Positions 13,695 to 30,446 of a stretch of DNA of 35,360 bases are shown here, piece by piece. The translations under genes and the position numbers were made by a program. The notes below the pieces were generated by a model that worked only from the letters and a program-made list of their open reading frames with translations, did not search any database and was not told the DNA's origin. Source of the stretch: Chloroflexota bacterium (GTDB lineage Bacteria > Chloroflexota > UBA6077 > SHYK01); the NCBI GenBank assembly GCA_016844585.1, contig JAERMM010000012.1, forward strand, positions 1 through 35,360, in the 5' to 3' direction. How positions within the stretch are numbered: the stretch's first letter is position 1; every line of letters starts with the position of its first letter.

Positions 13695-14663
13695 GTGACC
13701 GCGTCCGACGTCGCCCCGGTCATCAGTGTGCGGGCGCTCACGAAGCGATTCGGCGATCTCGTCGCCGTCGACGCCTTGACGTTCGAGGTGCAGCGAGGCG
13801 AGGTCTTCGCGTTTCTCGGCCCCAACGGCTCGGGCAAAAGCACAACGATTCGAATGCTGTGCGGGATCCTCGAGCCGACGAGCGGAGAAGGACGAGTCCT
13901 CGGCTTTGACATCGCCCGCGAAGGCGAGCGGGTCAAGCAGCAGATCGGCTACATGAGCCAGCGGTTTGCGCTCTACGAGGACCTCACGGTCCGAGAAAAC
14001 CTGGAGTTCTATGCAGGCGTGTACCAGGTCGCCGGCGCATCCCTGTCAGGACGGCTCGACGAGCTGATGACGATGGCCGGTTTGCAGGACCGCCAGGGCC
14101 AACTCGCCGGCAGTCTTTCCGGCGGTTGGAAGCAACGGCTCGCGCTTGGCTGCGCTATTGTGCATAACCCGCCGCTGCTGTTCCTCGACGAGCCAACCGC
14201 TGGGGTTGACCCCGTATCCCGTCGACGCTTCTGGACCATGATTTATGGCCTTGCACAGGGTGGTGTCACCGTGTTCGTAACGACCCACTATCTCGACGAG
14301 GCGGAGCACGCGAATCGCGTCGCGATGATCCACGGCGGTACCCTTCGAGCCCTTGCATCACCGGCAGAGCTCAAGCGGTCGGCGATGCAGGGCCAGCTCC
14401 TGAATGTAACTTGTGCCTCCCCGATGGAGGCGGCGGCCTTACTGGAGCGTGCGCCGGGCGTGAACGAAGTCGCCCTTTACGGGGCCGCGATACACGTTCT
14501 GGTGGATCCAACGCGCACGTCTGAAGAATCTGTGAGTGACTGGCTCAGCGATCATGGGATCGCGGTCGGCAATGTTGCGCCGATCGAGCCGACGCTAGAA
14601 GACGTGTTCGTGAGCCTCATTGGGACTGCGACGGTTGCTACCGGTCAGTCGACCACCCGATAA
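13695..14663 (+). CDS. ABC transporter ATP-binding protein (drug/ABC-2 exporter type)
   Basis: A 322-residue ATPase. Walker A is at G42-T50 (GPNGSGKST), the Q-loop at Q89, the signature LSGGW at 141-145, Walker B LLFLDE at 161-166 with catalytic E166, and the H-loop at H198. The C-terminal 80 residues (from about 240) form the extension seen in CcmA/DrrA/YbhF-like exporters. It powers the permease encoded just upstream. The GTG at 13695 is chosen because the protein homologous to the family begins there; the open frame extends back to 13503 only by overlapping the permease gene. The YbhF type has two nucleotide-binding domains in one chain, but this one has a single domain. Confidence 0.92.
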   Translation: MTASDVAPVISVRALTKRFGDLVAVDALTFEVQRGEVFAFLGPNGSGKSTTIRMLCGILEPTSGEGRVLGFDIAREGERVKQQIGYMSQRFALYEDLTVRENLEFYAGVYQVAGASLSGRLDELMTMAGLQDRQGQLAGSLSGGWKQRLALGCAIVHNPPLLFLDEPTAGVDPVSRRRFWTMIYGLAQGGVTVFVTTHYLDEAEHANRVAMIHGGTLRALASPAELKRSAMQGQLLNVTCASPMEAAALLERAPGVNEVALYGAAIHVLVDPTRTSEESVSDWLSDHGIAVGNVAPIEPTLEDVFVSLIGTATVATGQSTTR

Positions 14664-14715
14664 TCCGCGCGAGCGGCAGAGTTCTCAACGCTGAGTTGAT
14701 GTGTGTTCGAGGCCC

Positions 14716-14750
14716 GCTCACCCTAACCTTCTCCCGGCGGGAGAGGGAAT
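14716..14750 (+). repeat. Palindromic repeat, intergenic copy
   Basis: A 35-base element in the gap between the ATPase and the flavin reductase gene. It contains a near-perfect stem, CCTTCTCCCG against CGGGAGAGGG, preceded by CTCACCCTAA. Related copies lie inside two protein genes at 16974-17010 and 29420-29460. It has no T-run after the stem. Confidence 0.65.
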
Positions 14751-14774: not shown

Positions 14775-15284
14775 ATGCTTCAGGAAGCGGCGCTCGATCG
14801 CGCCTATCGCGCGACGCCACAGGGTCTGTATCTCATCACGACAAGCCGCGACGGTAAGCCAAATCTGCAGTTCGCCTTCCGTTCGCTAGGCGTCATTCAG
14901 ACCCCACCATACTTTGTCTTCGGCCAGCAAACGGGCAACTACAGCTATGAGACCGTCAAGCTCACCGGTGAGCTGGTGATCAACACCTGTTCCCAGGCGC
15001 ATATCCACGCAATCCGCGCCAGCCAAAATCTGACCGGCCGAGATGAGGAGGACAAGTTCGCTGTTCTCGGCATCACGCCCCTGCCTGCCAAGCTCGTCAA
15101 GGCGCCGCTGGTAAAGGACAGCTACGCGAGCGTGGAGTGCCGCCTCGTGAAGGAGCTCGACGTTGTGAAGGGGCTCGCGATCCTGCTTCTAGAAGGGATC
15201 GCCTGCTACTACGATCCTGAGCACCCGCCCATCTTCCGCCTGGATGGCAAGAATTACCCAATGATGGACCCGCTGCCAGAGTAG
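14775..15284 (+). CDS. Flavin reductase-like, FMN-binding split-barrel protein
   Basis: A 169-residue protein with the pattern of the flavin reductase-like domain: TPQGLYLITTSRDGKPN at the start, an aromatic patch TPPYFVFGQQTGNYS, ELVINTCS in the core strand, and the later GRDEEDKF segment. Members bind FMN and either reduce flavins with NAD(P)H or act as related FMN oxidoreductases; the precise reaction is not visible. The start at 14775 has GAGG about seven bases upstream. An overlapping ATG at 14771 is out of frame. It lies 111 bases after the ABC ATPase and may be transcribed alone. It ends eight bases before the convergent VWA gene. Confidence 0.8.
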   Translation: MLQEAALDRAYRATPQGLYLITTSRDGKPNLQFAFRSLGVIQTPPYFVFGQQTGNYSYETVKLTGELVINTCSQAHIHAIRASQNLTGRDEEDKFAVLGITPLPAKLVKAPLVKDSYASVECRLVKELDVVKGLAILLLEGIACYYDPEHPPIFRLDGKNYPMMDPLPE

Positions 15285-15291
15285 GAGCGCG

Positions 15292-17490
15292 CTATTTGAT
15301 GGTCTTGCGCTTGTTGTCGACGTAGTCGACGAGGACGTATTCGCCGAGGCGGTCGGGAGTTGCGTAGAAGGCGCGCCCACGGTTGATCTTCGTCATCTGG
15401 TCTACAAAGTCGGTAAGGTAGCGCCCCCGCTCCATCATGAACGTGTTGATCGTGATGTTCTCGCGGGTACAGCGGCCAACCTCGCGAAGGGTCTCCTGAA
15501 AGGTTCGATACGTGGGCGGATAGGAGAATTCAATCTGTCCGCCCTCAAAGTAAGCGGTGGGCTCGCCGTCAGTGACCAGGATAATTTGCTTGGTGCCGCC
15601 CTTGTGACGCGCGAGGAGTTGCCTCGACACCATGAACGCATGCTGCATGTTGGTGCCATAGCCCCATTCGTTCCACGTCAGACGCGGGAGGTCCTCTGTC
15701 GTTATCTGGCGTGCGTAGTAGGAGAAGGCGATGATGTCGAGGCTGTCGCGTGGATAGAGCCCCTTGATGAGCGAGTTCAACGCAATGGCGACCTTCTTGG
15801 CAGCCAGGATGCAGCCGCGAAGGAACATAGACCGGCTCATGTCCAGAACGATGACCGTCGAGCTCTGCGTCACCAGCTCATGGCGATAGACCTCGAAGTC
15901 ATCGGGGACAAGGCGAACCGGCGTGCCGGGGCCCTCTCGCACGACCGAGTTCATAAGCGTTTTTTCCAGGTCGAGCGAGAACGGGTCGCCAAACTCGTAC
16001 AGCTTCGACTCGTCGACGCGCTCGCCCCCAAGGCCGCGGTAATTCATTGGGTGTTTGCCAAAAGCATCGCGCTTCAGGTGCTGAAAGATGTCGTGAAGCG
16101 CTTTCTCACCGATGCGCCGCATCCCGCGGGAGGTGAGCTCCAGCTCGTTTCCCCGCTTCGTGATGTAGCCAGCCTCTTCCAACAGGCGCTCGAGCTGCTT
16201 CAACTGGTCCAGGGCCTCAGCGGCCTCGTCACCCAGCAGATCACGCATCCTTTCTCCATCAATCTGGTCGATGGAGGAGAGATCGCGCGCTTGCTGCAGT
16301 TGGCGCTCGAGCGCGTCCATCTGCTGGAGCTGGTCCATCAACGACATTGCTTCGACCAGTGAGACGGGCTCGTCACCACGGAAGGGGTATTGCCGTGTAT
16401 GGCGCCCCCCTGGGTCGAGTTGGTCGAGCAGGTTCGCCAGCTCGGCAAGCTCGTCGGACATCCCAGCCTGCCGCATGAGCTGATCCGCCATACCTTGAAG
16501 CTGTCCGCGTTGATCCGGGGTCATGCTCTGCATCAACGACTGCATCTGGCTGATACGGTCCTGCAAGTGCTGGACGAGCTGATCGAGAGACTCGATGCCT
16601 GGCGGAAAATTGTCTCCCCAGCGCCGCATGAACTGCTCGATGTCCGGCTCCCGTCCTTCGGCGCGGTCGCGCAGCATCTGGTTCAACTCTTGCAGCATCT
16701 GGCGGCTCGCGGCCATGTCCTGGGGCGTGGCCGTCTGCATTGCCTGCTGCATTCCCTGGAAGTAGGTCTGGGTGATCTGCTGCTGCAGCATGCTCAGCAG
16801 CTCCTGGAATTTTTCACGCGCCTCCGGGCTCATGAAATCGTAGTCGTTCAGCGCCTGAATGGCGCCGCCAAGATCCTTCGGAATCTGTTCGAGGAACTGT
16901 TGCTTCTTTCCCGCGATGTTCTCGAGCATCTGCAAGGGGGTCGGAGGTCGGGGGTCAGGGGTCGGAGACTCTGAGGTTCCTTCGCCTTCTGGGTGAGGGC
17001 TAGGGTGAGCGTCAGCCCGCTGTTGGCCACCCTCTAGCGCAGTTGCCCCCGGTGATTGCTCGTCGTCCCCTGGCCCCTGCGCGCGCGCCTCCCCCAGCCG
17101 ACGCTGGATCCCCTCACGTTCGGTTCGGAGCACGTCATCGAGTTTTTCCTGGATCTGGTCGATCATGCCACCGAGATTGAAGCGATCCAGCCGCTGCTGC
17201 CTCTGCTGGCGAAGCCTCTCCATGATCTGCTGAAGGCCCATCGTGCGGTCGCCGGCGCGATTCTGAAACCCGCGCTGCATGATGCGCTGCAGCGCCGACC
17301 GCACATCGCCATCGGCCAGGAGGTCGTCGCCCAGACTCTCCATCAGCTCGTCGGGGTCGAACGGCGAGATCTCCTGGGAACCATCCCAGCGCGAGTAGCG
17401 GAAGTGCCGCGGCCACGGGCCCGAGATGTCGGAAGGCAGGTTTACGGACGCGGAAGGGGGAGGCTGATTGTCGGGCGTGAAAGGCATCAT
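15292..17490 (-). CDS. VWA-domain protein, partner of the MoxR-type ATPase
   Basis: A 732-residue protein. The first 480 residues are glutamine-, methionine- and leucine-rich and mostly helical, probably coiled. The C-terminal 190 residues are a von Willebrand factor A domain with a complete metal site: D550-M-S552-R-S554, T613 in GYGTNM, and D641 in TDGEP. Such proteins pair with MoxR-type AAA+ ATPases in metal insertion or protein-complex remodelling, as BchD does with BchI. Residues about 161-186 are a proline-rich linker made by two inserted DNA repeats (16938-16965 and 16974-17010). The start lies nine bases after the ATPase stop, so translation is probably coupled. The function of this pair is not known. 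Confidence 0.85.
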   Translation of the reverse strand: MMPFTPDNQPPPSASVNLPSDISGPWPRHFRYSRWDGSQEISPFDPDELMESLGDDLLADGDVRSALQRIMQRGFQNRAGDRTMGLQQIMERLRQQRQQRLDRFNLGGMIDQIQEKLDDVLRTEREGIQRRLGEARAQGPGDDEQSPGATALEGGQQRADAHPSPHPEGEGTSESPTPDPRPPTPLQMLENIAGKKQQFLEQIPKDLGGAIQALNDYDFMSPEAREKFQELLSMLQQQITQTYFQGMQQAMQTATPQDMAASRQMLQELNQMLRDRAEGREPDIEQFMRRWGDNFPPGIESLDQLVQHLQDRISQMQSLMQSMTPDQRGQLQGMADQLMRQAGMSDELAELANLLDQLDPGGRHTRQYPFRGDEPVSLVEAMSLMDQLQQMDALERQLQQARDLSSIDQIDGERMRDLLGDEAAEALDQLKQLERLLEEAGYITKRGNELELTSRGMRRIGEKALHDIFQHLKRDAFGKHPMNYRGLGGERVDESKLYEFGDPFSLDLEKTLMNSVVREGPGTPVRLVPDDFEVYRHELVTQSSTVIVLDMSRSMFLRGCILAAKKVAIALNSLIKGLYPRDSLDIIAFSYYARQITTEDLPRLTWNEWGYGTNMQHAFMVSRQLLARHKGGTKQIILVTDGEPTAYFEGGQIEFSYPPTYRTFQETLREVGRCTRENITINTFMMERGRYLTDFVDQMTKINRGRAFYATPDRLGEYVLVDYVDNKRKTIK
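16938..16965. repeat. Four tandem 7-bp units inside the VWA gene
   Basis: On the plus strand, four copies of GGGTCGG with one change in two of them run without a gap. They encode part of a Ser/Thr/Pro/Asp-rich linker (SPTPDPRPP). The array sits eight bases from the palindromic repeat at 16974-17010. Confidence 0.7.
16974..17010 (-). repeat. Palindromic repeat inserted in the VWA coding sequence
   Basis: On the minus strand this 33- to 37-base segment matches the copy in the Rieske gene (29420-29460) at about 28 of 33 positions. Both are read in the same frame, giving HPSPHPEGEGT here and NPSPLPGGEGT there. The stem is weaker here than in the intergenic copy at 14716-14750. Confidence 0.65.
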
Positions 17491-29252: not shown

Positions 29253-30446
29253 ATGGATGCAGACATCGACTTCGTCCACACGGGCCCCGGCACGCTCGCG
29301 GGACGGTACCTCCGTCGGTTCTGGCAGCCAATCCATCGGGTCCACGATCTGGCCCCCGGCCGCGCGCTCCCCGTCCGCGTCATGGGCGAGGATTTCACAC
29401 TGTACCGGGGGGAGGCCGGCCCTAACCCTAGCCCTCTCCCAGGGGGCGAGGGAACTAATCCCCACTTGCTCGCTTTTCGCTGCGCGCACCGTGGGACGCA
29501 GCTCAGCACGGGCTGGGTCGAGGGCGACGATATCCGTTGCTTCTACCATGGGTGGAAGTATGGCCCGAACGGCCAGTGCATGGATCAGCCGGCTGAGCCG
29601 GAGCCTTTCTGCGCTCGCATCCAGATCCGCAGCTACCCCGTCGAGGAGTACATAGGTCTCGTTTTCGCCTACCTTGGCGAGGGCACGCCACCGTCCCTGC
29701 CGAGGTATCCGGACTTCGAAACCGAACGCGATCCACGAGTACAGGCCGCGTGGCCGTGCAACTACTTCGTTCGGCTCGAGAGCATTCGAGACGAGTGGCG
29801 GATAGGTCCCGTGGATCAAGGCTTTGCAGGCATGGCCGACATTCGTCAGATCGAAGCGGAAGAGACGGACTCCGGCCTCCTGCAACGGGGCATTCGATCC
29901 CATGACGACGTCACGGTGGGCTACGTGCACATGCCCAACGTCCATCAGTTCACGGTGTGTGGGAGCCCGCCCGATCAGAGCGGGAACGGCTCCTGGGAGT
30001 CGCTGCTCTGGATCGTACCTGTGGACGACGAGCACTTCACAACGTTCAACGTCACGCGAGCCGCACGCGGCGATGAGTCGAGTGCGAGCTACCAGGAGCG
30101 TCGTGCGGCCCGCGCCGGCAACATCGCTCGCCGCAAGCCAGCGGAGGAGCTCGGGGAGGAGATCCTTGCAGGGCGGCTGCGCCTTGCAGACGTGACCGAC
30201 CGGACCATGAACCTGAACGTGGTGCAGGACTACGTAGCGATAGTGGGGCAATCGCGGGTTGCCGACCGCGCAGGCGAGAACCTCGGCGCCCAAGACGCGT
30301 CGGTCGCACTGCTGCGCAGCATCTGGGAGCGCGAGCTGCGAGCTTTGGCGCACGATGAGCCGCTTAAGCAGTGGGAACGGCGAGTGGCAGTGCGGGCGGG
30401 CAAGACAGCGGCGGCAAGCCCCGAAAAGGGATCAGAGGGGTGCTGA
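29253..30446 (+). CDS. Rieske non-heme oxygenase-like protein, mononuclear iron ligands replaced
   Basis: A 397-residue protein. The Rieske 2Fe-2S domain is intact, with C77-A-H79 and C96-F-Y-H99 (HGWKYGPNGQC following). The C-terminal part follows ring-hydroxylating oxygenase alpha subunits, including VVQDYVAIVGQSRVADRAGE and the ENLGAQD segment. At the mononuclear iron site the family pattern NxxDxxHxxxxH appears as CNYFVRLESIRDEWRIGPVD. D180 is kept, but the two histidines are R183 and D188. Oxygenase activity is therefore doubtful. Residues about 56-70 (NPSPLPGGEGT) come from an inserted palindromic DNA repeat, just before the first cluster ligand. ATG 29253 has GGGAG five bases upstream. 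It may be co-transcribed with the downstream binding-protein genes. Confidence 0.82.
   Translation: MDADIDFVHTGPGTLAGRYLRRFWQPIHRVHDLAPGRALPVRVMGEDFTLYRGEAGPNPSPLPGGEGTNPHLLAFRCAHRGTQLSTGWVEGDDIRCFYHGWKYGPNGQCMDQPAEPEPFCARIQIRSYPVEEYIGLVFAYLGEGTPPSLPRYPDFETERDPRVQAAWPCNYFVRLESIRDEWRIGPVDQGFAGMADIRQIEAEETDSGLLQRGIRSHDDVTVGYVHMPNVHQFTVCGSPPDQSGNGSWESLLWIVPVDDEHFTTFNVTRAARGDESSASYQERRAARAGNIARRKPAEELGEEILAGRLRLADVTDRTMNLNVVQDYVAIVGQSRVADRAGENLGAQDASVALLRSIWERELRALAHDEPLKQWERRVAVRAGKTAAASPEKGSEGC
29420..29460 (+). repeat. Palindromic repeat inserted in the Rieske coding sequence
   Basis: A GC-rich element with stem CCCTCTCCC against GGGGCGAGGG. It matches the VWA-gene copy at about 28 of 33 positions and the intergenic copy at 14716-14750 more loosely. 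Its length keeps the Rieske frame open. Confidence 0.65.

Follow-up and report, generated by a model that had tools for sequence, protein, structure and literature searches.

In this study, we found that a 36-bp repeat, which by its sequence is a member of the known TM_ECO/PIT intrastrand triplex-motif family, is dispersed through the genome of a bacterium of the phylum Chloroflexota. Judging from the sequences, this tiny spreading repeat appears to add 12-residue segments to proteins, and in ten related enzymes it does so at one and the same surface loop. We consider it probable (about 0.8) that it is a non-autonomous dispersed element, which is copied to new sites and kept in genes only in surface turns or linkers and only if its orientation yields a hydrophilic peptide. 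The behaviour in this genome looks to be the new part, the repeat family itself being already known.

The window, which is the whole stretch of 35,360 nucleotides analysed, carries three copies of the repeat. The first (29420-29455, + strand) lies in frame in a Rieske [2Fe-2S] domain oxygenase gene (29253..30446, +; Pfam Rieske, 4e-16) and encodes (G)PNPSPLPGGEGT, while the second, a degenerate copy (16976-17011, - strand), lies in frame in the variable linker, located by orthologue alignment, of a VWA-domain gene (15292..17490, -; Pfam VWA_2) and encodes (D)AHPSPHPEGEGT. A covariance model found these two copies in the genome at E=7e-9 and E=4e-8, respectively, its seed having included all three window copies. 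The third copy (14715-14750, +) is intergenic, between an ABC-transporter ATPase ORF that ends at 14663 and an ORF that starts at 14775, and no ORF of at least 120 aa runs over it. The first-pass annotation had claimed a match of about 28 of 33 positions between the Rieske and VWA segments, read in the same frame, and an intergenic copy at 14716-14750; a direct count gave 30 of 36 identical positions, with PNPSPLPGGEGT and AHPSPHPEGEGT in the common frame, and the intergenic copy was recovered one position longer. When the whole window was scored with a 36-column profile whose training set was 35 copies of this genome from outside the window, the Rieske, VWA and intergenic copies obtained 49.4, 36.6 and 38.8 bits, compared with -10 for the fourth-best site and -2.9 for the best site over 15 shuffled windows. 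The presence of one palindromic repeat family in two unrelated proteins of the window was thus confirmed. When the copies were folded as single strands, the Rieske copy reached 11 paired bases, a 9-bp hairpin formed in the intergenic copy, and the VWA copy folded no better than its shuffles. A short GACCCCTGACCCCCGACC-type tract (16942..16972, -), which on direct reading encodes ESPTPDPRPPTP, adjoins the VWA copy on its downstream side.

Genome-wide, the covariance model detected about 66 copies (E<=0.001), both genic and intergenic, in an assembly of 3.85 Mb in 443 contigs that is 80% complete, so that the repeat seen in the window does have further copies; this and the other checks for which the first-pass annotation had asked turned out in its favour. 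A search with the 21-base left part, allowing at most two mismatches, returned 50 matches, against one for the reversed control. The repeat can be written as CCCTCACCCTARCCCTCTCCC-AGA-GGGAGAGGGRAC, and the alignment of 37 well-preserved copies from this genome gave the consensus CCCTCACCC TAR CCCTCTCCC AGA GGGAGAGGG RAC, with sharp limits at positions 1-36 and little conservation outside them. Folding of the hairpin part indicated a hairpin of 9 bp, closed by a 3-nt AGA loop, in the right part of the repeat, and the arm of this hairpin is mirrored by the left block CCCTCACCC; on the opposite strand the repeat reads CCCTCTCCC-TCT-GGGAGAGGG-YTA-GGGTGAGGG. Its length equals exactly 12 codons, and three of the six consensus frames are free of stops, two on the C-rich strand (PHPSPLPEGEG and LTLALSQRERG) and one on the other strand (SLSLWERARVR). 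A related form with a longer loop, CCCCCACCCCAACCCTCCCCC-N5-GGGGGAGGG, was also noticed in the same genome, mostly in non-genic positions (L061, L063, L065, L068 and others).

With respect to identity, the published TM_ECO pattern was matched exactly by 30 of 69 copies of this genome and with at most two substitutions by 51 of them, the window copies being degenerate members of it. Earlier work on the intrastrand triplex motif was reportedly done by Hoyne and Maher. The G-rich strand of TM_ECO follows CCCTCNCCC-N3-6-GGGNGAGGG-N3-GGGNGAGGG, with TTA or CTA as the second loop, and 3610 copies were described from 262 proteobacterial genomes; the motif forms an intrastrand triplex in vitro, its mechanism of spread is not known, and in E. 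coli MG1655 it is always intergenic, which was stated for that strain and not as a definition (Holder et al. 2015, PMC4666352). Our repeat shares with it the sequence pattern, the dispersed multi-copy habit, the overrepresentation in the genome and a copy number that varies widely between related genomes, but it differs in its host, a member of the Chloroflexota and not of the Proteobacteria, and in its location, since about 20 copies lie in frame inside conserved genes. Triplex formation by the copies in this genome is predicted, the folding having covered the hairpin part alone. Apart from Holder 2015, the search for papers on the repeat or its peptides gave only a few unrelated matches, and no report of a protein-coding role of this repeat was found in the open-access papers searched.

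Among palindromic repeats that time and again give rise to peptide segments within conserved proteins of bacteria, the Rickettsia palindromic element (RPE) is the best known, and the first-pass annotation had likened the present repeat to it. The likeness is supported as an analogy of behaviour, because both are palindromic, dispersed, and found in intergenic regions as well as in frame inside conserved genes; the RPE peptide is tolerated in a folded protein, as in the gmk example (PMC2229807). Membership did not stand: RPEs are Rickettsia-specific sequences of 105-146 bp with terminal inverted repeats, whereas the present element has 36 bp, another sequence and hosts in many phyla, and its family is the far more widespread TM_ECO. 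The 127-bp form of ERIC and the 107-bp Correia element (PMC2229807) are also small and have open frames that fuse in frame with genes, but they are larger than the 36-bp repeat, have other sequences and, unlike it, carry terminal inverted repeats and target duplications.

We counted a copy as genic only if the open frame around it showed homology to one gene both before and after the copy. Several long ORFs that were spurious, or in which the copy preceded the domain, were left out (L026, L029, L033, L036, L049 and L060), and about 20 in-frame copies in this genome satisfied this rule. Two VWA paralogues carry a copy, the second (C126:3301) in the corresponding linker; in the orthologue alignment this linker is variable and of low complexity in all orthologues, so that it represents a place where inserts are tolerated and not an exactly defined empty site. 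One copy lies between the catalytic and anticodon domains of IleRS, where the PDB homologues show a gap, three lie in one DnaE, and single copies were found in a LigD linker (assigned by the two Pfam domains that flank the copy), an M61 peptidase, a glycosyltransferase, a DUF6541 protein and Mfd (partial). The DnaE-type gene (L058:3-3197, contig C306) also contains a further repeated segment at two places (SKGRGSKEGSGG / SKERSGGFPPKSPS).

In all of these approximately 20 internal copies the coding strand is the C-rich strand, and the frames are distributed as about 16 PHPSPLP, three LTLALS and one other, so that most genic copies encode PHPSPLPEGEGT. If two forward and one reverse open frames are taken as equally likely, the chance of 20 out of 20 forward is about 3e-4, and with the extra Rieske copies left out (12/12 forward) it is about 0.008 under the same assumption. 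We infer that selection filters the reading frame and that the added peptides are roughly neutral.

This genome has about 33 Rieske paralogues of the window gene. Rieske expansions of the same kind were also noted in G001 and G002 and in G040, which is more distant. The empty loop reads LYRG-ESGTPHLVA-FRCAHR, with nine residues between the anchors, and ten loops carry the triplex motif, all at the LYRGE...PHLLAFRCAHRG beta-hairpin turn: those of the window gene and of genes on contigs C244 (two), C372, C51, C162, C329, C17, C89 and C437 (degenerate). Apparent shorter remnants occupy the turn in C225, C130 and a second C162 gene. In the window gene and in C244:2617 the loop exceeds the nine-residue one by exactly 36 nt, and the PDB homologue 7fhr has a 12-residue gap at the insert. 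No longer loop was found in the relatives G001, G002 and G040, whose sampled Rieske genes all have the nine-residue loop; the insert is thus missing at this place from other paralogues and from the relatives sampled.

These inserted loops might also descend from one ancient Rieske insertion, spread among the paralogues by duplication and gene conversion, which we regard as unlikely. Many of them start with E-A, having the 5' codons GAR GCS in common, and three genes that are not sisters (L122_1515, L124 and L013) share one compound insert, consisting of the triplex motif and CAGCACT heptads, with the same flanking GAAGAAAA-type codons, so gene conversion may explain part of the pattern. However, on a tree built with the insert columns removed, whose bootstrap had not fully settled, the nine rows with the motif need eight changes, a single clade is rejected (p-AU 0.00013), and sisters free of the insert are well supported (L124/L130, 100/99; L125/L136+L142, 100/99; L126/L149, 99/96); a single Rieske insertion was thus rejected on the tree. 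Flanking identity between inserted paralogues is not raised locally, as far as a crude and weak protein-level test can tell, copies occur in many unrelated genes beyond the reach of conversion among Rieske genes, and other repeats also occupy the same turn, namely ACTCAGC heptads (LSTQHSALST) and a palindrome encoding VIPTEGRNPYP...SAPRRND.

As for these other repeats, the tandem ACTCAGC heptads often stand directly after a triplex-motif copy and also occur inside genes (C244, C372, C329, C162, C220 and others). The longer palindrome, GTCATTCCGACCGAAGGGAGGAATC...GATTCCTCCGCTCCGCGTCGGAATGAC, sits in the turn of L134:1623-1900 (C278) and L146 (C110), and only three matches to one of its arms were found in the genome.

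Returning to the dispersed element as the preferred explanation, its architecture would comprise a putative third-strand block CCCTCACCC, a TAR spacer and the 9-bp hairpin with its AGA loop. Copying to new sites would add the element without evident target-site duplication, and the favoured copying step is structure-dependent copying of the hairpin or triplex DNA, or the action of some enzyme. Within genes, survival would be limited to sites at which the 12 added residues come to lie in a surface turn or linker, the surviving orientation giving a hydrophilic peptide rich in Pro, Gly and Glu, and selection would then retain only in-frame, hydrophilic inserts, as position, frame and orientation suggest. 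The proposal of the first-pass annotation that a spreading repeat is tolerated in loops and linkers and generates new peptide segments is supported, the copy number and scattered insertion suggesting elements that move rather than spread by recombination; neither an enzyme nor a pair of empty and filled alleles from a single species was found. A stronger statement, that a triplex-forming repeat acts as an active in-frame protein-insertion element which repeatedly enters one Rieske loop and housekeeping genes with no known transposase, is put forward tentatively, at slightly less than even odds.

Regarding the enzyme, REPs are likewise palindromic sequences of 20-40 bp in high copy number (PMC3733652; PMC2817692), and a REP-type element moved by a RAYT/Y1 transposase would account for the small hairpin, the many copies and the lack of evident target duplication; E. 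coli, moreover, carries both the repeat and a Y1 transposase. Such an origin is nevertheless improbable here, as the repeat, unlike the GTAG/CGTC REPs, is frequently intragenic, has neither tag in its consensus or the reverse complement, and shows no link to Y1 transposases. No Y1_Tnp was found in the own genome at its 80% completeness, in family f24, 10 genomes have 42-223 copies but gave no Y1 match, and in 151 genomes copy number and Y1_Tnp presence were unrelated (Fisher p 0.55-1.0). Because copy number does not track these transposases, the copying machinery is not attributed to Y1/RAYT, which was rejected as the mobiliser.

An assembly artefact of the metagenome bin, in which the repeat joins unrelated contigs, is very improbable: the genome is in 443 contigs and some copies lie near contig ends, but around the internal genic copies a single open frame continues, with coding sequence homologous to one gene before and after the insert, which chimeric joins would not produce. 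An ancestral functional peptide motif, with the DNA likeness due to coincidence or codon convergence, would fit the common frame of most genic copies, but it is scarcely credible and was rejected, since the peptide is missing from orthologues, paralogues and PDB homologues, the DNA is equally conserved in intergenic copies and in other phyla, and LigD, DnaE and DUF6541 use other frames.

Beside the RPE, this repeat would be another case of a palindrome that adds peptide segments; it is unrelated to the RPE, much smaller and far more widespread. The roughly ten paralogues with or without an insert at one position of the fold offer a natural series for studying the accommodation of inserts by proteins. 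The findings also sharpen the question by what means a sequence of 36 bp that lacks an associated transposase remains near-identical across phyla at dozens to hundreds of copies. Near-identical repeats are present in E. coli, Azospirillum, Pseudomonas, cyanobacteria, Planctomycetes and others, and exact 30-base matches were found in at least Pseudomonadota, Cyanobacteria, Nitrospirota, Planctomycetes, Acidobacteria, Armatimonadota, Entotheonella and Caldithrix, among others. Within the Chloroflexota, the number per genome ranges from 0 to more than 200, even between related genomes. Similar copies occur in 5378 of 5426 E. coli genomes, at a median of 17 places with a loose cut-off and 13 with a stricter one, and also on plasmids. 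All 60 sampled E. coli copies are intergenic, and 1 of 60 plasmid copies has an annotated gene underneath, the plasmid gene tables being incomplete. Of the 127 exact copies from other genomes, a single one looks gene-internal, in a metallo-beta-lactamase/beta-CASP protein of Stutzerimonas (L214). Two other Chloroflexota have internal copies, one in an ABC transporter linker (G006, of the same order as the own genome) and one in an Eco57I-type methylase (G097), so that the genic habit is strongest in the own genome but not unique to it. Two Campylobacter phage records (MG065686.1 and MG065691.1) were also observed to carry one copy of the repeat each, at 94%.
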